DNA from: Allomuricauda sp.
GTDB taxonomy: Bacteria > Bacteroidota > Bacteroidia > Flavobacteriales > Flavobacteriaceae
Assembly: GCA_030148305.1 (NCBI GenBank)
Contig: JASBTS010000228.1
Span: 1 to 39,952 of the forward strand
Length of the DNA stretch: 39,952 nucleotides
Direction of reading: 5' to 3'
Part shown: positions 3,128 to 21,584 of the stretch, in pieces
Layout of the letters: each line of letters starts with the position of its first letter
How positions within the stretch are numbered: position 1 is the first letter of the stretch
Position numbers and translations under genes: made by a program
The notes under the pieces: generated by a model
What the model was told of the DNA's origin: nothing
Database searches by the model: none
What the model saw: only the letters and a program-made list of their open reading frames with translations

Positions 3128-3871
3128 TTGACCATACCCTTCGAGCCTTCCCTTTTCGGAATTAAGATCAATGTCCATCTCATACTGGAATATCTGGCTT
3201 TCTTTATTGGTTTTAGATATTATATCAGGTTGCGAAGGTCGTCCAAAGACAACATATCCAACGGGAACAGGCTTTCGATTATACTCGGAGCCATTGTTGG
3301 CGCTTTTATAGGTTCAAGACTTATGGGATTTTTGGAAAATCCATTGATCCCAATGAACACCGATAATCTGTTGCAGTTGCTCAACACAAAGTCAATAATG
3401 GGAGGTTTGTTTGGCGGATTGATCGGAGTTGAATTATCAAAAAAAATAATACGGGAAAAACAATCATCAGGCGACCTATTCACTTTTCCGATTATCGTAG
3501 GAATACTTATTGGCCGTTTAGGTTGTTTTTTAAGCGGCACCAACGAATTTACCTATGGTAAGGAAACCCGTTTTTTTATAGGGATGGACTTGGGCGATGG
3601 CTTGCTAAGGCATCCAACCTCACTTTATGAAATGCTATTTTTAATACTACTGTTCGTCCTTTTGAAGCGATTTTCGAATTACCTTGAACAGGAAAATGGA
3701 TTACTGTTCAAGGTTTTTATGTTGGCGTACTTTGGATTTCGTTTCTTTATAGAGTTCCTTAAACCCAATGTTTTTTATGTTTTGGGATTGAGCAGTATTC
3801 AATGGCTTTGTGTAGTGTGCTGGATGTATTACCTGCCCACTTTAAATAAATTGGTTAGAAATGCCTACTAG
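3128..3871 (+). CDS. Divergent prolipoprotein diacylglyceryl transferase (Lgt) family protein
   Basis: A 247-aa polytopic membrane protein that matches the Lgt fold: 'GGLFGGLIG' (about 92-100), 'GRLGCFLSG' (129-137), 'RHPTSLYE' (161-168) and 'FRFFIEFLKPN' (204-213). Lgt normally transfers diacylglycerol from phosphatidylglycerol to the lipobox cysteine. Compared with E. coli Lgt as I remember it, Arg143 and the Arg/Glu of the last helix are kept (R130, R205, E209), but the His of the HGG motif is Met (M91) and the Asn of GRLGNF is Cys (C133). That points to a specialised paralogue rather than the housekeeping enzyme. The start is TTG at 3128; a stop sits just upstream. Its 3' end overlaps the radical SAM gene by 11 bases, so the two are very probably co-translated and may share a lipid substrate. 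Confidence 0.8.
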   Translation: MTIPFEPSLFGIKINVHLILEYLAFFIGFRYYIRLRRSSKDNISNGNRLSIILGAIVGAFIGSRLMGFLENPLIPMNTDNLLQLLNTKSIMGGLFGGLIGVELSKKIIREKQSSGDLFTFPIIVGILIGRLGCFLSGTNEFTYGKETRFFIGMDLGDGLLRHPTSLYEMLFLILLFVLLKRFSNYLEQENGLLFKVFMLAYFGFRFFIEFLKPNVFYVLGLSSIQWLCVVCWMYYLPTLNKLVRNAY

Positions 3872-5255
3872 AAAATATACCTATTACGATTATACGATCA
3901 GCTTGTGCCCTGAATGCCTAAAGCGCATTGATGCAAAAATAGTATTTGAAGACGGGAAGGTCTACATGTTGAAAAGATGTCCGGAACATGGCAACTCAAA
4001 GGTTTTGATAGCCGATGATATTGAGTATTATAAAAACATCAGAAACTACAACAAGCCTTCCGAAACACCCTATAAGTTCAATACAAAAACCCATTATGGG
4101 TGTCCGTATGACTGTGGGCTTTGTCCGGATCACGAGCAACATTCTTGCCTAACCATTATTGAAATAACGGACCGATGTAACCTCACATGTCCCACGTGCT
4201 ATGCTGGTTCTTCCCCAACCTATGGAAGACATAGAACCTTCGAGGAAGTGAAAACCATGCTGGATACCATTGTCGCAAACGAAAAGGAACCGGATGTGGT
4301 GCAGATCAGCGGGGGTGAACCCACCATACACCCTCAATTTTTTGAAATCCTGGATTATGCCAAAACCCTACCCATAAAGCATATTATGGTAAACACCAAT
4401 GGGTTGGCAATTGCAAAGGATTTTGAATTTGCAAAGCGGTTAAAAAGCTACTCGCCCGACTTTGAAATTTATTTGCAATTTGATTCCTTCGAAGAAGATG
4501 CCTTGGTAACGTTGCGAGGGGCAAACCTGAAGAAAATCAGGGAGAAGGCCATTGACCACTTAAACCAACTCAATCTTTCAACCACGTTGGTGGTTACCCT
4601 TCAAAAAGGGTTGAACGATCATGAGATTGGGAAGGTAATCGATTATGCCCTTCAACAAAAATGCGTAAGGGGCGTTACTTTTCAACCTACACAAATTGCG
4701 GGCAGGCTGGATAATTTCGATGCGGAAAAAGATAGGATTACCCTAACGGAAGTGAGACGGAAGATACTGGAACAAACACCCATTTTCACTCCGGATGATC
4801 TCATACCCGTGCCCTGTAATCCTGATGCATTGGTAATGGGCTATGTATTAAAACTGGATGGCAACAACATTCCGCTTACAAGATATGTGAACCCAACAGA
4901 TCTGCTGGACAATGGGAAAAATACCATTGTGTATGAACAAGATGAGGCCTTACATCAAAAAATGTTTGAAATATTCAGCACAGGTACCTCCACGGACAAG
5001 GCATCATCCAAATTGCACAGTTTACTTTGTTGCCTCCCCTTTGTGGAGGCACCCAATCTCGGGTATGACAATTTGTTCAGGATAATCATCATGCAGTTTA
5101 TTGATGCCCATAACTTTGATGTGAGGGCCATAAAAAAATCATGTGTCCATATCGTTAACAAGGACTATAAAATAATTCCATTTGAAACCATGAACCTATT
5201 TTATAGGGATGACAAAGTGGAATACTTGGAAAAACTTAAGGAAAATGCAATTTAA
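3861..5255 (+). CDS. Multi-cluster radical SAM enzyme, MJ0619/Tes-like family
   Basis: 464 aa. The radical SAM motif is 'CNLTCPTC' (C106, C110, C113), followed by 'ISGGEPTIHP', the SAM-binding GGE region. Before it lie a zinc-ribbon or rubredoxin-like segment (CPEC at 16-19, RCPEHG at 39-44) and a second Cys-rich stretch 'CPYDCGLCPDH' plus C96, enough for an extra metal cluster. The C-terminus has 'SCVHIVNKDYKIIPF' and 'NLFYRD'. This arrangement is that of the archaeal MJ0619 family, annotated as pterin methyltransferase and later tied to tetraether lipid synthesis (Tes). Sitting in an operon with an Lgt-like lipid transferase and a small membrane protein, it more likely modifies a lipid or lipid-linked product than a pterin; that is inference. 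Confidence 0.82.
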   Translation: MPTRKYTYYDYTISLCPECLKRIDAKIVFEDGKVYMLKRCPEHGNSKVLIADDIEYYKNIRNYNKPSETPYKFNTKTHYGCPYDCGLCPDHEQHSCLTIIEITDRCNLTCPTCYAGSSPTYGRHRTFEEVKTMLDTIVANEKEPDVVQISGGEPTIHPQFFEILDYAKTLPIKHIMVNTNGLAIAKDFEFAKRLKSYSPDFEIYLQFDSFEEDALVTLRGANLKKIREKAIDHLNQLNLSTTLVVTLQKGLNDHEIGKVIDYALQQKCVRGVTFQPTQIAGRLDNFDAEKDRITLTEVRRKILEQTPIFTPDDLIPVPCNPDALVMGYVLKLDGNNIPLTRYVNPTDLLDNGKNTIVYEQDEALHQKMFEIFSTGTSTDKASSKLHSLLCCLPFVEAPNLGYDNLFRIIIMQFIDAHNFDVRAIKKSCVHIVNKDYKIIPFETMNLFYRDDKVEYLEKLKENAI

Positions 5256-10029: not shown

Positions 10030-10212
10030 AGTTGGTTTTTATGGTTTACAGCAAGTATGTTTTGCCAAGGATAAAGTTATCGAATTAAAAAAGTCGCACA
10101 ACACATAAAACCATGATTATCAATATCACACAATTGTGTGATGCTGGATACAACAATAGGATGATTTTTAAAAATCATAGAATAGGGTGTAAAATAGCCG
10201 AAAGTGTGGTTC

Positions 10213-10220
10213 TAACTTTG
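10213..10220 (+). promoter_or_regulatory. Bacteroidota -7 box (TAACTTTG) for the cyclase operon
   Basis: TAACTTTG matches the Bacteroidota sigma-ABfr -7 consensus TAnnTTTG exactly. A transcript starting about 7 bases downstream would leave ATG 10230 almost leaderless and give ATG 10266 a leader of roughly 40 bases, so it also argues against translation from ATG 10113. No clear -33 TTG is seen at the right distance. Confidence 0.4.
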
Positions 10221-10265
10221 GCACTATCGATGAGCAGAAAAAATAACCTCTTTAATTCCAAAGCA

Positions 10266-11606
10266 ATGACCAATAAGATTACGTATGCCGCAATTAATAG
10301 ACAGGTTGAATCTAATTCCACCACCGATTCGTTGTTGGATATATCGATCAAGAACAAAATACCACATTTGCACGAATGTGGGGGTAACGGGGTGTGTACT
10401 ACTTGTAGGGTAAGGGTGCTGGAAGGCATTCAAAACCTAACCCCTAAGACCCAATACGAAAATGCGAGCTGTAATGCCAGACAATGGGATCCCTCCATTC
10501 GCTTGGCCTGCCAGGCTCGTCCGAAGGGAGATGTGACCATTCAGAGGTTGATCTGGTCCAGCGGCGAGGTCAATACGCTACAAAAAGAATTGGTCCCAAC
10601 AGGATTAGCGGAGGAAAGACCGATTGCTATATTATTCTGCGACCTTAGGAATTTTACCAACCTATCTTCCAACAACTTGAATTTTGACATCGCCTATATG
10701 TTGAACAAGTTCTATACCGCATTGGGTGAACCCATTTTAATGAACAACGGCATCATCTATCAATATGTAGGGGATGAAATTATAGGAGTTTTTGGCACCA
10801 CTGGTGGAACCGCCCAAAAAAATTGTGAGGATGCCATCCGAGCCGCTTTGGGCATGCAATACGCTTTGGAGTTTTTGAACCGTTCCGATTTAAAAGATAT
10901 TGGTGTGAAATTGAAATCGGGGATCGGCATCAATTTCGGGAATGCATTCATTGGTCATTTGGGTCATCCTACCCATAAGCAGTTTTCGGTAATCGGGGAT
11001 CCGGTAAATGTGGCCAGTAGGATACAAAATGAGACTAAGGTTACTAATACCGACATCCTAATTTCCGATACCGTATTTGAGAATATTAACAAGGAAACTG
11101 TTGTAGTCGGAAAAAATTTCCTCAACAAATTGGCGGGGAAAGACGATCCCTTAAGCTTGTATGAATTGATCGGGTTCAATGACATGGACCTTCAGTTGGA
11201 ACTCCAGTCTTCCATGAACATTATGCTGGCCGATGAGGAGGGATTTGCAAAAGTCTTTTATGATAAAGTTTTTGCCCTGGCTCCTTTTGTGAGGCAGTTG
11301 TTCAAGAGCAATATGGCCGATCAAGGCAGGTTGCTCACCCATATGTTGGGCGGAATTGTTTATTCCCTTTCCCGACCCGAGCACCTTAAAAAAGGGTTGA
11401 TGAAATTAGGTCAAAGCCATGTTCAATATGGGGTGAAAGAAGAGTATTATCCAGTGGTAAAGCAAGCCATGATGGAAACCATTGAAGAGGTAATGGGTGA
11501 AAATGGTACCTCCCAATGCCTTAAAGCATGGAACGCCGCCCTTGATTTTGTGATAGATACCATGAAATCCAGTGCAAGGCCCAATGTTGAACATGTTTAT
11601 GCTTAA
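10266..11606 (+). CDS. [2Fe-2S] ferredoxin - class III nucleotide cyclase - globin fusion
   Basis: The listed ORF starts at 10113, but the first 51 residues are not ferredoxin-like, so ATG 10266 (446 aa, 'MTNKITYAAIN') is preferred; ATG 10230 is possible. ORF numbering is used below. Ferredoxin domain: C89, C95 and C98 in 'CGGNGVCTTC' plus C133 in 'LACQARP', the Cx5Cx2C...C pattern of adrenodoxin-type clusters. Class III cyclase: metal Asp in 'FCDLRNFTNL' (D177), 'YVGDEIIGVFG' (D221) and the catalytic Asn/Arg in 'DPVNVASR' (N299, R303). Gln218 occupies the place of the usual adenine-selecting Lys, so the base is uncertain. The C-terminal ~120 residues look like a flavohaemoglobin-type globin with proximal-His candidate H436 in 'GQSHVQYGVKEEYYPVV'. 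A PycTM-like gene follows 15 bases later. Likely a redox- or gas-controlled cyclic nucleotide source. Confidence 0.87.
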   Translation: MTNKITYAAINRQVESNSTTDSLLDISIKNKIPHLHECGGNGVCTTCRVRVLEGIQNLTPKTQYENASCNARQWDPSIRLACQARPKGDVTIQRLIWSSGEVNTLQKELVPTGLAEERPIAILFCDLRNFTNLSSNNLNFDIAYMLNKFYTALGEPILMNNGIIYQYVGDEIIGVFGTTGGTAQKNCEDAIRAALGMQYALEFLNRSDLKDIGVKLKSGIGINFGNAFIGHLGHPTHKQFSVIGDPVNVASRIQNETKVTNTDILISDTVFENINKETVVVGKNFLNKLAGKDDPLSLYELIGFNDMDLQLELQSSMNIMLADEEGFAKVFYDKVFALAPFVRQLFKSNMADQGRLLTHMLGGIVYSLSRPEHLKKGLMKLGQSHVQYGVKEEYYPVVKQAMMETIEEVMGENGTSQCLKAWNAALDFVIDTMKSSARPNVEHVYA

Positions 11607-11621
11607 TGAATTTCATAGCTG

Positions 11622-12209
11622 ATGTATAAAAACCACAAAAAAAGAGTGCCCAACTTTCAAAATGAACTCCTTAAAAGCATTGAGACAAGGGGTCATGCGG
11701 AAGAGCTTGTGGACCACTATTGGGGTAGCATCAACTATGTGCTGGGATTAATCAGAGCCTCCGAAATAAAGGCAGGTTTGTTACTTTCCTTCTACGGGAT
11801 CCTTATCAATTTTATCTTTCAAAAAATAGATTTGATCATTTCTGAAGGACCACAACAATTCATGCTCTACATTCTTTTAGGTTTTTGGTTCCTATCCACG
11901 GTGGTGTCCATCTATTACAGTATCCGGTGCTTTATGCCCTCTATTGAAGGCAAGTTTGAGAAGAATGTCTTCTTTTACGCAGATGTCATCACCAAATTTG
12001 GAACGATCAATGACTTTTCAAAAACCTTTTACAAATTAAGTTTGAAGGAGGAGGAATTGTTTGACCAGTTGGGACAACAGATTTTTATCATCTCAAAAAT
12101 CGCAGACCAAAAATTTCGATGCGTCAATAAATCGTTACGTTTTTTGGCCATAGGTCTTCTCTTGTTTTTGCTAGTGGTGATCGTGTATACCATTCATGTA
12201 ATTTTATGA
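11622..12209 (+). CDS. PycTM-like (Pycsar effector family) membrane protein
   Basis: 195 aa with three hydrophobic helices (about 49-67, 81-101, 172-193). The first is preceded by 'LIRASEIKAGLLLSFYGILI', which fits the 'aD.KA..ll..n.l' signature of PycTM/DUF5706 proteins. The central stretch 'NVFFYADVITKF...FYKL...LGQQIFIISKIADQKFRCVNKSL' then the last helix follows the same family layout. In Pycsar anti-phage defence such proteins disrupt the membrane when cCMP or cUMP binds; cyclic nucleotide binding here is inferred from family and neighbour only. The ATG lies 15 bases after the stop of the cyclase fusion, on the same strand, so they form a cyclase-effector pair. No other partner gene is evident. 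Confidence 0.75.
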   Translation: MYKNHKKRVPNFQNELLKSIETRGHAEELVDHYWGSINYVLGLIRASEIKAGLLLSFYGILINFIFQKIDLIISEGPQQFMLYILLGFWFLSTVVSIYYSIRCFMPSIEGKFEKNVFFYADVITKFGTINDFSKTFYKLSLKEEELFDQLGQQIFIISKIADQKFRCVNKSLRFLAIGLLLFLLVVIVYTIHVIL

Positions 12210-13487: not shown

Positions 13488-13638
13488 AGGTTTCATATGC
13501 TTGAGCTTTGGCGCCCGCCGAAATAATCCGATGTAAGGTGTTTCAGCGTAAAAACATCAGATTATCATCTAAATTATCGGTTTATAAATACCTTTATATA
13601 GGTTGAAATCATTCCCATTGTATAAAGAATCTTTTAGG

Positions 13639-16554
13639 ATGAAATTGAAATTTGCTTTTCGGGTACCACTTCTTCTCTTCTCATTGGCCGTACTTCAGGT
13701 TGCGGCACAAAAAAAAGAGACTGCACAGATATCAACTTTAATACAAAATCTAAAAAAGGACATCCGCGGCCCATACAAGGACATTCGATGGTTCTGTACC
13801 GATGGAAGTATTCGTGCCCCAAAAGATCCCTGTCCAGATGAAATTGGACCAGGTGTGCAGCATGCCCGTTATAAGGATGAGGTAGAAGCCTTGGGCAAGG
13901 CCAATCACATCTATTTGGGCCAGATTTTGGCATACACCGATCAAGAACCTTTTTGGGATGCGGCCAATGACCATTCCCGATTGAAGCAATATCAACTTGA
14001 TAAATATTTAAGAAGTGTAGACAACGGTTGGATCAATCAAAAGGGACAATACTATCGTGGTGCCATCCAGTCCGAAGATGAGGAAGCATGGGGCATCGAA
14101 TTCTACAAATGGGTTTTGGCGAATGATGAGTTCCTAAAGAATGAATTTTTCTTGGTTCGCCAGTCATTGAAGGATATTCCACATAATGGGGACGACAATG
14201 TGGCCCAGAAAATGCGGAGTGAATCCAAGGTCATTTCCGACCTGTATGAACCCTTCATGGATCTTAGAACGAAAATCCACAGTCAACCTGAAGATAGTGA
14301 TATCCAAAAAGTGCTTCAATTCAAGCAAAAACATAGCACCAAGTTAACAACGGATCTGTCCAAAAAATTGGACGAACTGGTGGCCACCATGAGGGAATTC
14401 CACAAACCAGTGGATATTACCTCTTTGCCCAAAAGGGCCTCGCTCACAAAAGGTACTCCTTTGGGAAAGGCCATCGAAAGCTTTGCTTCCAACAAGGAGT
14501 TAATGGGTAATCCCAAACTGTTGATGGAACAGGCTTCACAGCTATTGTTCGATATCAGGAACGGACTTTTGGAGGAAAAGCGACCCATGGCCAGATTGCA
14601 ATTGCTCGATATTTCCTTAAAATTGGAAGAGATTGTTTTCAAAAGCTCACCCGATTACCAGCCTGAAAACTTAAAGGAACTGCTGCATAAAATCTGCTAT
14701 TTAGGAATGGCCGTTACAGGTTCAGGGTACTTGGAGCAATGGGAGTGGGGACAATTGGCTAGCAACCTTACCAATTACGAAGCAGACGAACGCTCCCTGG
14801 GCGAATTGACCGAAGTGTTGAACCGAGCCCGTTCCGCAGTGGAATGGAGTGCGGCCATGGTAAAGGCCAATTATGATGCGATCGTGAAGGAATATGTTGC
14901 TTTTGAGCCGCTTACCGCGGGTTTTGTGGACGACAAGATCAGAGGTTCTGTTGCTTTACATTTGGGCCAAAGTGTCGGGGAATTGGGCAATCTCATTTCT
15001 GCTGAATCCCAATTGGCCAATAAAGTGATGGATATCCAAAACCAGAGTACTATACGCGGTCTGAATCCTGGCTATGCCTTTGGGGAATTGGTCGTAGTAG
15101 GTGGCAGTTCGGATGATATTGAGGTGTCTTCGGACAAGATCTACGTGTTCCAACGGCCCCCATCCGATTTAAAGCCCGTTGCAGGTATTGCCACGGTTGC
15201 CGAAGGCAATATGGTTTCCCACGTGCAATTGTTGGCCCGTAATCTCGGAATCCCGAATGCGGCATTGTCGGACCAAAACCTTCAAGACCTTAAAAAGTAT
15301 GATGGCTCAAGGGTGTTTTATGCCGTTTCCAATAAAGGGAATGTGATTTTGAAATCCGAAAGCCAAATGACCAAGGACGAATTGGCCCTTTTTGAAAAAA
15401 AGGAACGCAAAGAGGAACGCATCGAGGTACCCATTCAACAGATTCGTTTGGATGAAAACAAGGTGCTGAACATGCGGGATGTGGATGCCGATGATTCCGG
15501 AAAATTGTGTGGACCCAAAGCTGCCAACCTAGGCCAGCTTAAAAAAATGTTTCCCGAAAAAGTAGTGGAAGGTTTGGTGATTCCCTTCGGGATTTTCAGA
15601 ACACACATGGACCAAAAAATGCCCGATCAGGAAGGATCTTATTGGAATTTCCTCACCAAAATGTTCGAAGAGGCCAATCGCATGTTGGCATCCGGTATTT
15701 CCGATAAGGAAGTAGAAAATTATCAATTGCGCCAACTGGAAATTTTGAGGGATGCCATTAAAAAAATGCAGCTTAGGGATGATTTTATCAATCAATTGGA
15801 AACAGGTTTTAAAGACGTTTTGGGTTCTGAATTGGGTTCCGTTCCCGTGTTTCTGCGTAGCGACACCAATATGGAAGATTTAAAGGATTTTACCGGGGCC
15901 GGACTCAACCTGACCATTTTCAATTCGGTGGAAAGGGAAAAGATACTGGAAGGAATCAAGGATGTTTGGGCCTCTCCCTACACCGAACGCAGTTTCAAAT
16001 GGCGTCAAAAATACCTATTGAATCCCGAAAACGTGTTCCCGTCCATTTTGGTCATCCCTAGTGTGGATGTGGATTATTCTGGAGTGTTGATCACCAAGGG
16101 CATCAGTATGGGCACGGATAAGGACCTGACTGTGGCATTTAGCAGAGGTGCAGGCGGTGCTGTGGACGGACAAGCTGCTGAACAGTATCTCATCAAAGAT
16201 GAGGGCGGTTATGTTTTGTTGGCGCCCGCACGGGAACGTTTTTATAACGGACTGCCCAAAACCGGTGGCACCGAAAAGAAGAAAGCCACCTTTCAAGAGC
16301 GTGTGCTGAACGAACGCAATATCGATGAGATTAGAGGATTGGCCCATCAGATTCGGGAGCGCGTTCCGAAAGAAACGCATTCGGACTACCAAGGGGCCTA
16401 TGATGTAGAACTGGGTTTTAAGGACAACAAGCTTTGGCTGTTCCAGATCAGGCCTTTTGTGGAGAATAAAAAAGCGTTGGGTTCCACCTATCTGGAGTCC
16501 ATCACGCCAAAAATCGACCTGACCAAACGAATTTCACTTTCCAAAAAAATCTAG
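13639..16554 (+). CDS. Secreted dikinase-like protein (phosphohistidine domain plus PEP/pyruvate-binding ATP-grasp)
   Basis: The ORF runs from a TTG at 13603, but ATG 13639 (971 aa) starts a classic signal peptide 'MKLKFAFRVPLLLFSLAVLQVAAQ'. About 450 helical residues of unknown function come next. Then 'GNMVSHVQLLARNLGIPNA' (His about 528) resembles the phosphohistidine swivelling domain, particularly the 'SHV..RARN' of glucan water dikinase. 'GPKAANLGQL' (about 625) and 'VFLRSDTNMEDLKDFTGAGL' (Arg about 740) mark a PEP-synthase/PPDK-type nucleotide-binding domain, ending with 'LWLFQIRPF'. The order His domain then nucleotide domain is that of glucan water dikinase, not PPDK. An ATP-dependent dikinase fold behind an export signal is unusual. 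It abuts a serine hydrolase gene with no gap. Confidence 0.85.
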   Translation: MKLKFAFRVPLLLFSLAVLQVAAQKKETAQISTLIQNLKKDIRGPYKDIRWFCTDGSIRAPKDPCPDEIGPGVQHARYKDEVEALGKANHIYLGQILAYTDQEPFWDAANDHSRLKQYQLDKYLRSVDNGWINQKGQYYRGAIQSEDEEAWGIEFYKWVLANDEFLKNEFFLVRQSLKDIPHNGDDNVAQKMRSESKVISDLYEPFMDLRTKIHSQPEDSDIQKVLQFKQKHSTKLTTDLSKKLDELVATMREFHKPVDITSLPKRASLTKGTPLGKAIESFASNKELMGNPKLLMEQASQLLFDIRNGLLEEKRPMARLQLLDISLKLEEIVFKSSPDYQPENLKELLHKICYLGMAVTGSGYLEQWEWGQLASNLTNYEADERSLGELTEVLNRARSAVEWSAAMVKANYDAIVKEYVAFEPLTAGFVDDKIRGSVALHLGQSVGELGNLISAESQLANKVMDIQNQSTIRGLNPGYAFGELVVVGGSSDDIEVSSDKIYVFQRPPSDLKPVAGIATVAEGNMVSHVQLLARNLGIPNAALSDQNLQDLKKYDGSRVFYAVSNKGNVILKSESQMTKDELALFEKKERKEERIEVPIQQIRLDENKVLNMRDVDADDSGKLCGPKAANLGQLKKMFPEKVVEGLVIPFGIFRTHMDQKMPDQEGSYWNFLTKMFEEANRMLASGISDKEVENYQLRQLEILRDAIKKMQLRDDFINQLETGFKDVLGSELGSVPVFLRSDTNMEDLKDFTGAGLNLTIFNSVEREKILEGIKDVWASPYTERSFKWRQKYLLNPENVFPSILVIPSVDVDYSGVLITKGISMGTDKDLTVAFSRGAGGAVDGQAAEQYLIKDEGGYVLLAPARERFYNGLPKTGGTEKKKATFQERVLNERNIDEIRGLAHQIRERVPKETHSDYQGAYDVELGFKDNKLWLFQIRPFVENKKALGSTYLESITPKIDLTKRISLSKKI

Positions 16555-17817
16555 ATGAAAAAGATTGTTGCACTCGGGATATTGGGGTTAATAGGATTGG
16601 GTTTCACCGAGTTTGTAGAATATCCCATCGATGGATACGAACGAACGGGAATCAAAAGGCTCAAAAGGCTGGAAATGATCAAAAATGGGGAGTTGAAAGA
16701 TACTTCACCTTTGCCCGAAGGCGCCAAAAAATCATGGGAAGACATTGAGTTGAACCTGCTTTCCAGAAAAGGGGACAGCGTGGGCAGTTTTTTTGTGGTG
16801 GATGAAACCTTTCAAAAGGAAATCAATGGGCTTTTCCGAGGACTGGACAAAAGTTATTCCTTGACCATTCTCGATATTTCCGAACCGGATAGTGTTCGGT
16901 ATGCGGAACGCAACAAAACCTTGGGATACCAACCGGGGAGTGTAGGCAAATTGGCGGTATTGACAGCCCTTTTTGAGCAATTGGCCAAAATTTACCCTGA
17001 TTCCTTTGAGCTACGAACCCAATTGCTCAAAAATAAGGTGGTAAAAGCAGGGGTATGGGGGCTAACGGATGAACACACCATTCCCATTTTTAATGTGGAA
17101 AAAAACACCTTGGTAAAACGGCAGGTCATTGCCAGTGATGTGTTCAGTTTGTACGAATGGGCCGATCATATGCTTTCCGTGAGTAACAATGGTGCGGCCA
17201 GCATCGTATGGCGCGAGGCCCTTTTAATGGCCGCTTTCGGGGAAAAATATCCTGATCTTACCGAAGAGGAGGCCATGGCCTATTTTAAGGAAACCCCTAA
17301 AAAGGACCTGACAGATCTGGCCAACGATGTGGTCAATCTTCCCCTGCGAAGCTTGGGCATCACTTCAGATGAATGGAGGTTGGGCAGTTTCTTTACCACC
17401 GGGGCCAATACCTATGTGGGCGACAAGGGTGGAAGCATTGGTACGCCCTATGGATTGATGAAATTTTTGATCCAATTGGAACAGGGCAATGTTATTGATG
17501 AGGTCAGTAGTCTGGAAATGAAGCGGTTGATGTACATGACTGACCGAAGGATCCGTTATGCACAATCCCCTGCATTGAAGGATGCAGCCGTTTATTTTAA
17601 ATCGGGAAGTTTGTACAAATGCGACAGGAGCAAGGGCGAGGAATGTGGAAAGTACATGGGCAACGTGCAAAATTTCATGAACTCTGTCATCATTGTGGAG
17701 CATCCGGACAATTGTAGGTATATGGTGGTGTTGATGACCAATGTACTGCGAAAGAATTCCGCTTCGGACCACATGTATTTGGCCTCGGCAATAGATAAGA
17801 TCGTTAGGAAGGGTTGA
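16555..17817 (+). CDS. Class A beta-lactamase-like serine hydrolase (PBP-related)
   Basis: 420 aa. An N-terminal hydrophobic segment 'MKKIVALGILGLIGLGF' serves as a signal or anchor. The three serine beta-lactamase/PBP motifs are visible: SxxK as S129-V-G-K132 in 'QPGSVGKLAVL', SxN as 'SVSNNGAAS' (about 210-212) and KSG at 349-351 in 'YFKSGSLYKC'. It is longer than a class A beta-lactamase (about 290) through insertions between motifs, so resistance is not implied; a periplasmic hydrolase or esterase is more likely. The ATG follows the dikinase stop with no spacer (TAGATG), so the pair is translationally coupled. The last 14 bases overlap the 3' end of the convergent transporter gene. Confidence 0.8.
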   Translation: MKKIVALGILGLIGLGFTEFVEYPIDGYERTGIKRLKRLEMIKNGELKDTSPLPEGAKKSWEDIELNLLSRKGDSVGSFFVVDETFQKEINGLFRGLDKSYSLTILDISEPDSVRYAERNKTLGYQPGSVGKLAVLTALFEQLAKIYPDSFELRTQLLKNKVVKAGVWGLTDEHTIPIFNVEKNTLVKRQVIASDVFSLYEWADHMLSVSNNGAASIVWREALLMAAFGEKYPDLTEEEAMAYFKETPKKDLTDLANDVVNLPLRSLGITSDEWRLGSFFTTGANTYVGDKGGSIGTPYGLMKFLIQLEQGNVIDEVSSLEMKRLMYMTDRRIRYAQSPALKDAAVYFKSGSLYKCDRSKGEECGKYMGNVQNFMNSVIIVEHPDNCRYMVVLMTNVLRKNSASDHMYLASAIDKIVRKG

Positions 17818-20605
17818 TTTCCGCCAAGGCGTTTTGGGCAAAATCCCTTATTTTTTGGTTTTCGTCCGTGGCAAATCTTTTCAATAGAGGTTCGTACTTA
17901 CTTTCCTTTTGTTTTCCGATTAGATAAAGCACTGCCAGTTTTAAGTTCACGTCCGGCACTTGGAGCAATTGCTCAAAGCATTCCATTTCGGATGGAATGT
18001 TGTGTTTGATTTTCTGAATTGCTTCCTCCGATGAAAAATCCATGGTGGCTTCTTCAATAATAGGCAGCAATTTCTGTTTCAGGTTTCCAGTCAATAGGTT
18101 ATCCAAAAACTCGATGGATTTGTTCCGCGCCTCTTGTTTTGGGCTTAAAAGTCCCAAATAGGCATTCTGTACATCCTCCTGTACATATTTTAATCCCAAA
18201 AGCTTAAAAATACGTTCAAGACCTGCATCCAATCGTCGTTCCAAAAGTTCCAAAAGCGAAGCCCTGGCATCCCTTTCTTCTACATCGATTCCTGTCCCCG
18301 ACTTTTTCCTGTTGCGATACGAAATGATAATCTGCGTATGCATGGCCGATAAAGTCTGGTGGTACAACCTGCATTCGTCAAAAACTTTGGAAGCCACTTT
18401 AAAACGGTTGAAACGTAGGTTAGGACGCTCCTTTCTGATATCGCTGAGCGCACGGACCACTTCCAACCGGATACTCAGATCTACATCATCAAAAAGCTGG
18501 AACAGACAGTGTACCGCTTCCTTCGATTTAAAGGATTTGATGACCAAGGGTACAAACCGGCATGTTTCCAAATCTATCGTCCTTTTACTGACCTGTGAAA
18601 CCAAAATGGGCAAAATACCCGGGCCATAATTGTTCAACGATTCAATTACGATTGGGCGATAGGCTTTATGGGGCAATAAATGCAGCAATTTGTCGATGAA
18701 CATCGGATGCATGCTGATTCCTGCTGCAGTGATGGCCGCTTTTTTCAAAACTTCGTCATGGTTGTCCAGACCATCTATGATCACTTGGTAAAACTGTGGG
18801 TAACCAGAGGCGCCAACGGCTTTTAAAACAAGTGGATTGATGGGGTTTTCGTTATCGGATAAACGCTTTTCCAGCCTTCCTTGGAGGTTATGGTTCGTTC
18901 TTAAGGTCATGTTGCCGGCACTTTCCCTTGCCAAACAGAATAGGGCCGTGTCCCGGACCAATGCATTTTCGGAATCCAAGAACCGATCAAAGACATATTC
19001 TTCCTTCTGATCGGAATGTAGCAAGAGGTATTCAAAAGTGGCCAAAGTGAGGTCTTCATCCCCATATTCCAACAATTCGTTGATCTGTACCACCATAGAA
19101 GAGCTGTTCAAAAAATACAGGTTGCGCATGGCGGCGGCTTTCACTTTTAGGGATGGATGGTCCAGTAATCGCAATACATCGCTGGTAAACCGCCTGTCGT
19201 TGATTTCCATTAGCTTGTTGAGCATGAACAAAATCTGATCCTCATTACCGGATGAGAAGACACTTTTCATGCCCTCCACTACGGACACATTTTTGGCTTT
19301 TGATACCGATGCGTTCTTGTCCTTGGCGGTGGCAGATTCCAAATTGTTTTTGAAGGTGGCGTAATATTCCTTCCGCAATTCCCCGATGAAAAAAATCCAG
19401 ACCAAAACCAAACCAATGATTAGAAGGGTTACACTCAAAGTACCCAGCTCAAGTCCATTGACAAAGAAAACCAGCAAAAGCCCCGCAAAGCCAGTTGCAA
19501 TGCTATCCACTACCACATCAATGAACGATTTGGTCCGGTTCTTCAGGTCGAATGGAAGGGGCAAAGCCAGTAATTCGGAGGCACTTTTGTTGATGGATTG
19601 CTTCATGATTCCATCCATGGCCTTTATGGCCACAATGGCGGAAAGCTCCGGAAGAAAGAGGAAAAAAACAGCTCCAAAAAGAATGCCCAACGGTAAGAGC
19701 AACAAGGAAAAACCAACTCCCCAGATGCCTACGATCCGATGCGTTAAAAATAACTGTACGGCCAAGGAAAGCAAATTGAAGGTAGAGAACCAAAACGCAA
19801 AAAACGAGGTGAGCTCCTCAGGGTCTTCAATGGATTTGGCCGCAAAATCGCTGAAAAGATAATCCACCAGTTTGGCCACCAAAACCCCAACGGCAACGGT
19901 TAATGCCATATAGGTAAGGTGTCTGGACTTTTTGATGAGTTTATAAGGGTGTCCATCGGTGAGGGAGATCCTTTTTTTTTGTTTAAACTCATCCAGTTTG
20001 TTCACGCGCAATCTCCAAATGTAACGTAGTATTGGAAAACAACCCATCAACAAAACCGCGGCAATAAAGATCATGGCGTCGTTGCCGAACACAGGGGCAA
20101 ATATGGAAGTCAAATAGCCACCGAAAATACCTCCCAAAATGGCCCCAGAACCTATAAATCCGAATAGTCTTTTGGCATCCCTAACGTTGTAGACCAGATT
20201 GGCCAAAACCCAAAACTGGGAAGCGGACAACACCGCATAGATCGATACCCATATATAGAAGAAAAACAAAAGGTAGGTATTCATCAACCCAAAAATCAAC
20301 AGAAAGCCGAGTGCGATCAAAATGATAATCGAGGTTGAAAGGGTAGTTTTTATAATGCGGTTCAGTTCAAACTTGGCAAGTATCTTGGTGTAGAACATGG
20401 AACTTGCCACCGCGGTAAGGGCTACTAAAATATAGGCTAATGACAATTTTTCGGCACCGAGTTCGGAAAGGAACAGGGCATTGATGGTCGGTTTAATGAT
20501 CAACAATACCGAAATGATCAAAAAAATATAGCAGAACATAAAAAGGGAGATTTTGTATTCTCCCTTTCGTATATCAAAAAATTGATTTGCCAGTCTATAG
20601 ATCAT
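17804..20605 (-). CDS. ATP/ADP-translocase-like (NTT/Npt family) membrane protein fused to HEAT repeats
   Basis: 933 aa. The first ~415 residues form about 12 membrane helices; 'VLLIIKPTINALFLSELGAEKLSLAYILVALTAVASS', 'SQFWVLANLVYNVRDAKRLFGFIGSGAILGGIFGG' and the later 'NKSASELLALPLPFDLKNRTKSFIDVVVDSIATGFAG' are typical of NTT/Tlc nucleotide transporters and their free-living relatives. Residues from about 445 to the end are HEAT-like helical pairs ('LLDHPSLKVKAAAMRNLYFL', 'DENQKIRDFAQNALAEI') probably in the cytoplasm. Transported substrate is not proven; nucleotide exchange is the family activity. It is 22 bases downstream of a serine hydrolase gene on the same strand and converges on the dikinase operon with a 14-base 3' overlap. 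Confidence 0.83.
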   Translation of the reverse strand: MIYRLANQFFDIRKGEYKISLFMFCYIFLIISVLLIIKPTINALFLSELGAEKLSLAYILVALTAVASSMFYTKILAKFELNRIIKTTLSTSIIILIALGFLLIFGLMNTYLLFFFYIWVSIYAVLSASQFWVLANLVYNVRDAKRLFGFIGSGAILGGIFGGYLTSIFAPVFGNDAMIFIAAVLLMGCFPILRYIWRLRVNKLDEFKQKKRISLTDGHPYKLIKKSRHLTYMALTVAVGVLVAKLVDYLFSDFAAKSIEDPEELTSFFAFWFSTFNLLSLAVQLFLTHRIVGIWGVGFSLLLLPLGILFGAVFFLFLPELSAIVAIKAMDGIMKQSINKSASELLALPLPFDLKNRTKSFIDVVVDSIATGFAGLLLVFFVNGLELGTLSVTLLIIGLVLVWIFFIGELRKEYYATFKNNLESATAKDKNASVSKAKNVSVVEGMKSVFSSGNEDQILFMLNKLMEINDRRFTSDVLRLLDHPSLKVKAAAMRNLYFLNSSSMVVQINELLEYGDEDLTLATFEYLLLHSDQKEEYVFDRFLDSENALVRDTALFCLARESAGNMTLRTNHNLQGRLEKRLSDNENPINPLVLKAVGASGYPQFYQVIIDGLDNHDEVLKKAAITAAGISMHPMFIDKLLHLLPHKAYRPIVIESLNNYGPGILPILVSQVSKRTIDLETCRFVPLVIKSFKSKEAVHCLFQLFDDVDLSIRLEVVRALSDIRKERPNLRFNRFKVASKVFDECRLYHQTLSAMHTQIIISYRNRKKSGTGIDVEERDARASLLELLERRLDAGLERIFKLLGLKYVQEDVQNAYLGLLSPKQEARNKSIEFLDNLLTGNLKQKLLPIIEEATMDFSSEEAIQKIKHNIPSEMECFEQLLQVPDVNLKLAVLYLIGKQKESKYEPLLKRFATDENQKIRDFAQNALAEINPS

Positions 20606-20627
20606 TGGTCAATATGCTATCCAATGT

Positions 20628-21530
20628 CTAAATTTCGGGTTTTTTCAATACTTTTTCCACTGGTTTTACCAGATTTCGGATGATTTGCTCGCCATCCGGA
20701 TCATCAACAAGGGCCACCAATATGTATCTGCGATTGGATTCTTTTCCCCAGACTAAAATGGAATCGGAGTGGAACGTTTTCCAGGATCCCGATTTTCGGA
20801 ACAAGCGTGCCGAAGGGGCAATGATGTCCAAAGTATTCACGAATTTATGGTGCAACTCAGGGTTTTCCATGATGTTCAACATCTGTTTGGACCTTTTTTC
20901 GTTCACCAATTGGCCATTGGCCAAAAGATAATAGAACCTACAAACCTGGGTTACCGAAGCGGCATGGCTTAGATTTTTCAAGGGTTCCCTATTGGTGTCA
21001 CCACCACCGCCATACCGTTTGCCTACCCAAAGTCCTCCGCCGTTTTCCTCATCGTAAAAGGCATATTTGGGGTCCGTCATAACCGATTCTATTTTAGCAT
21101 ACCCAACACGGTCTATCATTCGGGTGGAGGCTGCATTGTCCGACTTGCTTATCATCAACCTCATATCCTTTTTCACCTCTTGGGTTTCCACCAGCTCTCC
21201 CTTTTCAATGGCGTCCATGGCTGAAAGGAGAATGGCTATTTTAGGCAAGCTTGCGGCATACATCATGTAATTGCCATTGATCCTTGCAAATCGAACATTT
21301 TCGGGATTGCTAAGATCCACAATCCCAACGGCCATCTTTTTTTGTGAAATCAAATGGGACCAGGTTTCGTTGCTCATAATTTCCTCTTCCAAACTGTTTT
21401 GAAGGGAAGTGTCTACCAACTTGGTGAGCGGCTTCATGTTTTGGCTTCCCATTTTCAGAGGCAAAGCTTGTTGTCCTGAAACGGATGGGATTAGGCCGGA
21501 AAAAAATAAAACAACAAAAAAGTTCCTCAT
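20628..21530 (-). CDS. Class A beta-lactamase-like serine hydrolase, second copy
   Basis: The track starts at a TTG (21533), but the next codon is ATG (21530), giving 300 aa with the signal peptide 'MRNFFVVLFFSGLIPSVSGQ'. Motifs: SxxK as S94-L-P-K97 in 'AASLPKIAIL', SDN at 130-132 in 'SKSDNAAS', and KSG at 246-248 in 'FRKSGSWKT'. The size and spacing are close to true class A enzymes, though the omega-loop Glu is not obvious, so catalytic type is uncertain. It is the first gene of an operon with the NTT/HEAT protein and has a good promoter upstream. It shares the family, but not close sequence, with the 420-aa hydrolase across the convergent junction. Confidence 0.83.
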   Translation of the reverse strand: MRNFFVVLFFSGLIPSVSGQQALPLKMGSQNMKPLTKLVDTSLQNSLEEEIMSNETWSHLISQKKMAVGIVDLSNPENVRFARINGNYMMYAASLPKIAILLSAMDAIEKGELVETQEVKKDMRLMISKSDNAASTRMIDRVGYAKIESVMTDPKYAFYDEENGGGLWVGKRYGGGGDTNREPLKNLSHAASVTQVCRFYYLLANGQLVNEKRSKQMLNIMENPELHHKFVNTLDIIAPSARLFRKSGSWKTFHSDSILVWGKESNRRYILVALVDDPDGEQIIRNLVKPVEKVLKKPEI

Positions 21531-21556: not shown

Positions 21557-21584
21557 CAAAATTATATAATCCAAAGATGTACAA
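21557..21584 (-). promoter_or_regulatory. Bacteroidota-type promoter for the hydrolase/transporter operon
   Basis: Read on the minus strand, TTG (21584-21582), 17 bases, then TAATTTTG (21564-21557). The -7 element fits TAnnTTTG exactly and the spacing suits the sigma-ABfr consensus. It lies about 27 bases ahead of ATG 21530. Confidence 0.5.

Follow-up and report, generated by a model that had tools for sequence, protein, structure and literature searches.

The stretch of DNA considered here (the window, 39,952 nucleotides at full length) comes from contig C35 of a 239-contig, 3.1-Mb genome of Allomuricauda sp., whose closest named genomes belong to Flagellimonas/Allomuricauda, with 94-95% identity for the dikinase described below. 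It carries four intact genes in two convergent operons, one encoding a predicted exported dikinase and a serine hydrolase (hydrolase 1), and the other a second serine hydrolase (hydrolase 2) and a protein in which a nucleotide-translocase (NTT) domain is followed by HEAT repeats (NTT-HEAT). The first-pass annotation of the sequence had reported this arrangement together with a 14-base overlap of the two 3' ends; the open reading frames (ORFs) confirmed its coordinates, and its domain calls hold as well (Table 1). The start of hydrolase 1 abuts the dikinase stop with zero gap. The 14-bp overlap was restricted to 11 Flagellimonas-type loci, and elsewhere the operon ends are separated by anything from a few bases to some tens (median 19), indicating that the feature conserved across loci is the tail-to-tail order and not the length of the overlap. 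A convergent NTT-HEAT gene was present inside the fetched DNA in 69 of 80 loci, the remainder being mostly from Maribacter, with large or unresolved spacing. Comparison of the upstream regions of the two operons revealed no obvious common motif, and clear conservation was seen only for the hydrolase 2 promoter.

Table 1. Features of the four-gene locus in window coordinates
Feature	Position	Strand	Details
Dikinase-like phosphotransferase, predicted exported	13639..16554	+	971 aa from ATG; TTG start at 13603 adds 12 aa; PPDK_N 88 bits
Predicted signal peptide of dikinase, without lipobox	13639..13707	+	MKLKFAFRVPLLLFSLAVLQVAA, cleaved before Q; from sequence and relatives
Dikinase N-terminal domain, mainly helical	13711..15012	+	Residues 37-470 of TTG-start ORF; invariant columns, AlphaFold (AF2) model
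Dikinase swivelling phosphohistidine domain	15052..15372	+	Catalytic His540 at 15220-15222
Dikinase ATP-grasp (PPDK_N) domain	15505..16476	+	Residues 635-958; K639, R752, E936, Q948, R950
Hydrolase 1, beta-lactamase/DD-peptidase-like serine hydrolase	16555..17817	+	Beta-lactamase2 29 bits; S129-V-G-K132, S210-N-N212, K349-S-G
Tail-to-tail overlap of both operons, 14 bp	17804..17817		TGA 17815-17817 (+) versus TTA 17804-17806 (TAA on -)
NTT-HEAT protein	17804..20605	-	12-transmembrane NTT/MFS fold (residues ~1-426), then HEAT repeats (~442-931); HEAT_2 59 bits
Hydrolase 2, secreted beta-lactamase-like serine hydrolase	20628..21530	-	ATG; Beta-lactamase2 76 bits; S95-L-P-K98, S131-x-N133, K247-S-G
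Probable Bacteroidota-type promoter of hydrolase 2/NTT-HEAT	21557..21584	-	TTG-N17-TAATTTTG; kept in 12 aligned Flagellimonas-group loci

To the first-pass annotation, the gene order had suggested that the two operons form one system, and co-occurrence across the family was its own proposed test. We surveyed 121 genomes of the Flavobacteriaceae, one per genus, scoring full-length genes. The dikinase, hydrolase 1, NTT-HEAT and hydrolase 2 were each found in the same 22 genomes, the other 99 having none of them, which strongly supports the one-system proposal. When mapped on an rpoB tree that covered 20 genera with the genes and 60 without, presence and absence required 17 changes, about the number obtained for shuffled labels; 13 of these were forced by well-supported branches, and the four genes always changed jointly. 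Counting supported branches, the genes went together in 13 of 13 independent pairs (sign test, p=0.00024). This patchy pattern ruled out shared ancestry as the only cause of the co-occurrence. Sequence distances of the four genes agreed with each other (Spearman 0.64-0.81, with NTT-HEAT and hydrolase 2 the best-agreeing pair at 0.81) but not with those of rpoB (-0.08 to 0.21). Since the distances are mutually consistent and discordant with rpoB, the set thus moves between genera as a unit or cassette. Around the 80 named loci and their relatives, these four families were the only recurrent ones, with 31-36 genus labels each against at most 10 for the next neighbour family. The PAS-kinase encoded upstream and the TonB receptor encoded downstream were considered as members and ruled out, because neither is conserved among genera.

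Two genomes retain the set without linkage, as would be expected for joint function: the NTT-HEAT gene lies 2 Mb away from the other three in G109, and all four genes occupy separate sites in G296, which belongs to another family. In a survey of 297 genomes across the phylum, the dikinase and hydrolase 1 occurred in the same 11; six of these belong to other families, and hydrolase 2 was present in every one of the six. The NTT-HEAT of the module forms a distinct subfamily (E<1e-200, compared with about 1e-140 to 1e-157 for other Bacteroidota NTT-HEATs) that was detected in 9 of the 11 module genomes and in no other of the 297. Complete clusters outside the family were found in G344 and G184, and across a contig break in G182. 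In the divergent modules of G300 and G316, the dikinase, hydrolase 1 and hydrolase 2 genes are adjacent with no NTT between them. At another site, G316 encodes a more distant NTT-HEAT; genomes without the module, for example G312 of the same genus, have this kind too. The sole NTT relative in G300 has no HEAT repeats. Because these two genomes keep the other three genes without the module NTT-HEAT, the core of the module is the dikinase with the two hydrolases; the transporter accompanies it almost always, though not in every genome.

Relatives of the dikinase outside its own genome share 51-69% identity with it (22 of the 121 genera of the family). Among 80 relatives, a hydrophobic N-terminus was present in 71 and a signal-peptidase-like site in 65, while a lipobox was found in none; the export that the first-pass annotation had predicted is therefore borne out by signals conserved among relatives. 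The ATP-grasp residues K639, R752, E936, Q948 and R950 were invariant in 21 sequences, as was S539-H540 within SHVQLLxRNLGIPN. Judged by its sequence, the dikinase is exported, with all catalytic residues present. The Pfam phosphohistidine domain models matched below their cut-offs (PEP-utilizers, E=0.02; GWD1_pHisD, E=0.15), and the call of this domain is based on the SHV motif, its position and a second phmmer stretch on 8a8e. The fold of the ATP domain matched that of the rifampin phosphotransferase ATP domain 5hv6 (Foldseek, TMt 0.84). Residues ~37-470 are mainly helical in the AlphaFold model (mean pLDDT 82) and contain invariant RGPYxxIxWFCxDG and PC motifs (C65, C77). This N-terminal domain had no Pfam match at E<=10, and the PDB fold matches listed for it were dikinases and ATP-grasp proteins only; it is presumed to be the acceptor-binding part. 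The reaction products of dikinases are AMP and inorganic phosphate (Pi), not ADP, and the acceptors known in the family include pyruvate, starch, phenol and rifampin. In one relative (G092, locus L016), a single in-frame TAA lies within the matched stretch, so that the true start is possibly downstream or the gene is damaged.

Comparison with characterised dikinases revealed both likeness and divergence. As in the alpha-glucan and phosphoglucan water dikinases (GWD/PWD), the His domain precedes a C-terminal PPDK-type ATP domain, an SHV..RARN-like motif surrounds the histidine, and the phosphoenolpyruvate (PEP)-binding barrel is missing. Unlike these enzymes, however, the module dikinase has a bacterial signal peptide and an unrelated N-terminal domain. 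Its GWD1_pHisD match fell below cut-off, and the Pfam scan found in it no carbohydrate-binding module, the starch-binding domain included. The rifampin phosphotransferase RPH-Lm (5hv1, 5hv6) offers the closest ATP-domain fold and also transfers the ATP beta-phosphate via a phosphohistidine, but it is cytoplasmic and arranged as ATP-rifampin-His domains, whereas the module dikinase shows the reversed order and a new, presumed acceptor domain, and scores 56 bits against the NCBIfam RPH model (cut-off 999). PpsA and PPDK have homologous ATP-grasp and His domains; their PEP/pyruvate-binding TIM barrel is absent from the module dikinase according to the Pfam scan and to a fold match confined to the ATP and His parts, and its score (83 versus 883 bits) is far under every NCBIfam PpsA cut-off. 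Searches of the open-access literature turned up nothing relevant on the four-gene combination, on a secreted dikinase or on Bacteroidota dikinases. The exported dikinase with its N-terminal domain and the fixed combination of four genes appear to be new, although the parts belong to known superfamilies.

The two hydrolases are homologous to each other (hhalign, 95%), and their SxxK, SxN and KSG motifs were invariant in 21 sequences of hydrolase 1 and 22 of hydrolase 2. They share these motifs with class A beta-lactamase/DD-peptidase-like enzymes (PF13354), but differ from them in having large conserved inserts and, in the case of hydrolase 1, a score of just 29 bits; neither has a sequence relative in the PDB. 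A hydrophobic N-terminus was found in all 80 relatives of hydrolase 1, nearly all without a clear cleavage site, and might be a membrane anchor or a signal, whereas the signal peptide of hydrolase 2 is clear. With respect to the omega-loop glutamate by which true beta-lactamases deacylate, position 183 of hydrolase 2 was acidic (E or D) in every sequence, as read without a structure-based alignment, and may be a candidate. Hydrolase 1 was not found in phages. In three Lutibacter loci (L163, 13518-15386; L169, 17057-18934; L185, 17141-19017), hydrolase 2 is duplicated in tandem, as two tblastn pieces.

The fourth protein had been described in the first-pass annotation as an NTT-type, ATP/ADP-translocase-like HEAT protein. 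The NTT part of this description stands. The protein did not match the Pfam NTT model PF03219 even at E=10, but a single-sequence search reached AtNTT1 (E=1.5e-6), a profile search did so at E=1.4e-13 with a second translocase match at 1.4e-11, and the top three PDB folds for the model were the Chlamydia and Arabidopsis ATP/ADP translocators 9j3n, 9j3l and 9j3m (Foldseek, TMt 0.71-0.74). It is thus the profile and fold searches, through their matches to AtNTT1 and Chlamydia NTT1, that give the NTT label, and not Pfam; as far as its modelled fold can tell, the transporter is a true NTT. Its C-terminus consists of helical repeats in the AF2 model. Among its positively charged loops the most prominent is the K/R-rich loop between transmembrane segments 6 and 7 (about residues 198-225), and by the positive-inside rule both termini and the HEAT repeats would be cytoplasmic. 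The ATP/ADP exchange that the annotation had invoked fares less well. K155, E245, E385 and K527 are reported to be crucial for ATP/ADP exchangers (PMC10654386); in AtNTT1, mutation at K155, E245 and K527 abolishes binding or exchange, or nearly so (PMC3306366). In the profile alignment E245, E385 and K527 align with S121, D248 and T371 of the module protein, and K155 falls probably on L60 in a weakly aligned stretch (the AtNTT1 chain numbering is shifted by 84, as deduced from the fit of all four residues). Despite its likeness to AtNTT1 and CpNTT1 in fold and profile, the module protein differs from them in three of four charges, in its HEAT extension and in the missing PF03219 match. According to Major, Embley and Williams (2017, PMC5381601), NTT-HEAT proteins are conserved across a broad range of bacteria and have not been characterised; the fusions described there share the order of NTT domain and HEAT repeats, but their reported neighbours are cyclic-nucleotide-binding proteins and not a dikinase/hydrolase module. 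At locus L150 (Maribacter polysaccharolyticus), the tail-to-tail genes are those of hydrolases 1 and 2, with no NTT-HEAT gene between them, as judged from the locus only. In two genomes of one genus (G316:C7:47924-52234 and G312:C1:855685-859836), the distant NTT-HEAT has a conserved neighbour, another NTT-like gene of shorter length (about 460 aa).

We consider the chances about even that the four genes constitute one horizontally exchanged cell-envelope module for periplasmic phosphorylation and hydrolysis, because they combine all-or-none co-occurrence, a common history and a conserved order with export signals, intact catalytic residues and an NTT fold. In such a module, the periplasmic dikinase would move the beta-phosphate of ATP to His540, from which it would pass to an acceptor on the N-terminal domain with release of AMP and Pi. 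The acceptor would probably be an envelope glycan or a small molecule coming in from outside, and the paired serine hydrolases might act on the same substrate by cleavage or deacylation, either ahead of its phosphorylation or afterwards. NTT-HEAT would sit in the inner membrane with its HEAT repeats in the cytoplasm, carrying a nucleotide or phosphorylated solute and so coupling both compartments. Its likeliest cargo is adenine nucleotide for the dikinase, without ATP/ADP exchange chemistry of the AtNTT1 type. Several points weigh against the one-module proposal. ATP is normally scarce in the periplasm, and no substrate is assigned to any of the four proteins. Of the four functional NTT charges only E385 is kept (as D248), the other three being absent, and the transporter is not strictly required, given that G300 and G316 lack the module subfamily. 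The tree was built from a single gene with FastTree, and linked transfer by itself can produce co-occurrence, with few unlinked cases to set beside it.

If physical linkage alone explained the co-travel, the operons would be passengers on one cassette with independent functions. The strong linkage, the cassette-like transfer, the separate promoters without a common motif and the closely matching histories of NTT-HEAT and hydrolase 2 would all fit. However, one operon was never seen without the other among the 121 genera, the genes are kept in one genome though dispersed in G109 and G296, and in Maribacter the insertion of as much as 8 kb between the operons has not led to loss of NTT-HEAT where it is visible (L122, L124, L132), which makes this explanation decidedly improbable. 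A role in detoxification or scavenging, with the dikinase and hydrolases modifying an incoming compound in the periplasm and NTT-HEAT importing or expelling the phosphorylated or nucleotide-like product, seems unlikely to us. The patchy, horizontally moving distribution is typical of accessory modules, the hydrolases are beta-lactamase-like, and the closest ATP-domain folds belong to rifampin phosphotransferases, the cytoplasmic counterpart of such a modification; yet the rifamycin-binding domain is lacking and the domain order reversed, no plasmid record covers 80% of the dikinase, and the hydrolases matched no known resistance family in NCBIfam.

The full model of the first-pass annotation, in which NTT-HEAT is an ATP/ADP exchanger that feeds the exported dikinase, draws on the NTT fold and family and on the strict pairing, across the Flavobacteriaceae, of the transporter with an exported enzyme that uses ATP, a pairing kept without linkage in G109 and G296. 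It nevertheless found no support and is quite unlikely, since the charges are lost (S121, T371 and probably L60 at the key sites, where AtNTT1 mutants lose activity) and the dikinase releases AMP and Pi, so that an ATP/ADP exchanger would leave its product unrecycled. The module NTT-HEAT is moreover missing from G300 and G316. AtNTT1 itself exchanges ATP for ADP and Pi (PMC3306366), and no NTT-HEAT has been characterised so far (PMC5381601). Supply through another exchange pair, or transport of another nucleotide, is possible. A more ambitious form of the one-module proposal is a dedicated extracytoplasmic ATP-powered pathway of free-living bacteria, in which NTT-HEAT would export nucleotide against the dikinase product, the dikinase would phosphorylate a glycan or external compound, the hydrolases would process it, and the cassette would spread through the Bacteroidota; we regard this form as rather unlikely.

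Some loci carry additional genes. A TerC gene (PF03741, 179 bits) lies between hydrolase 1 and NTT-HEAT in seven loci with six genus labels (for example L128, 14242-15192). In Bacillus, proteins of the TerC family supply exported enzymes with metal (PMC10550928), and the insertion would fit a metal-dependent enzyme outside the cytoplasm, with a possible metal supply for the exported dikinase. At L196 (8393-15243, genome G076), a 7-kb insert between the operons encodes a GH63/MGH1-like glycoside hydrolase and an AraC-type regulator; other Maribacter loci are likewise widely spaced. Anti-phage defence was considered for the module and rejected: PADLOC gave no defence model for the dikinase or the hydrolases, and its HEAT match (19.6 bits) is a repeat match. 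Elsewhere in the window, 10113-12209 (+) encodes a fusion of [2Fe-2S] ferredoxin, nucleotidyl cyclase and globin followed by a PycTM protein; PADLOC matched PycC and PycTM, and the two look like a Pycsar anti-phage pair of unusual architecture, into which redox- or gas-sensing domains have been built. A radical SAM protein bearing an HMPTM zinc-ribbon domain is encoded at 3861-5255 (+).

The periplasm holds little ATP, which makes ATP-dependent enzymes a rarity among exported proteins. Here, in many genera, an enzyme of this kind comes with a member of the transporter family that is known to swap ATP for ADP over the membranes of bacteria and plastids. For the NTT-HEAT proteins of free-living bacteria, described in 2017 without a known job (PMC5381601), the module supplies an enzymatic partner, and the dikinase family gains a member whose presumed acceptor domain is wholly new. 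Taken together, the all-or-none set across marine Bacteroidota points to one unrecognised cell-envelope system.

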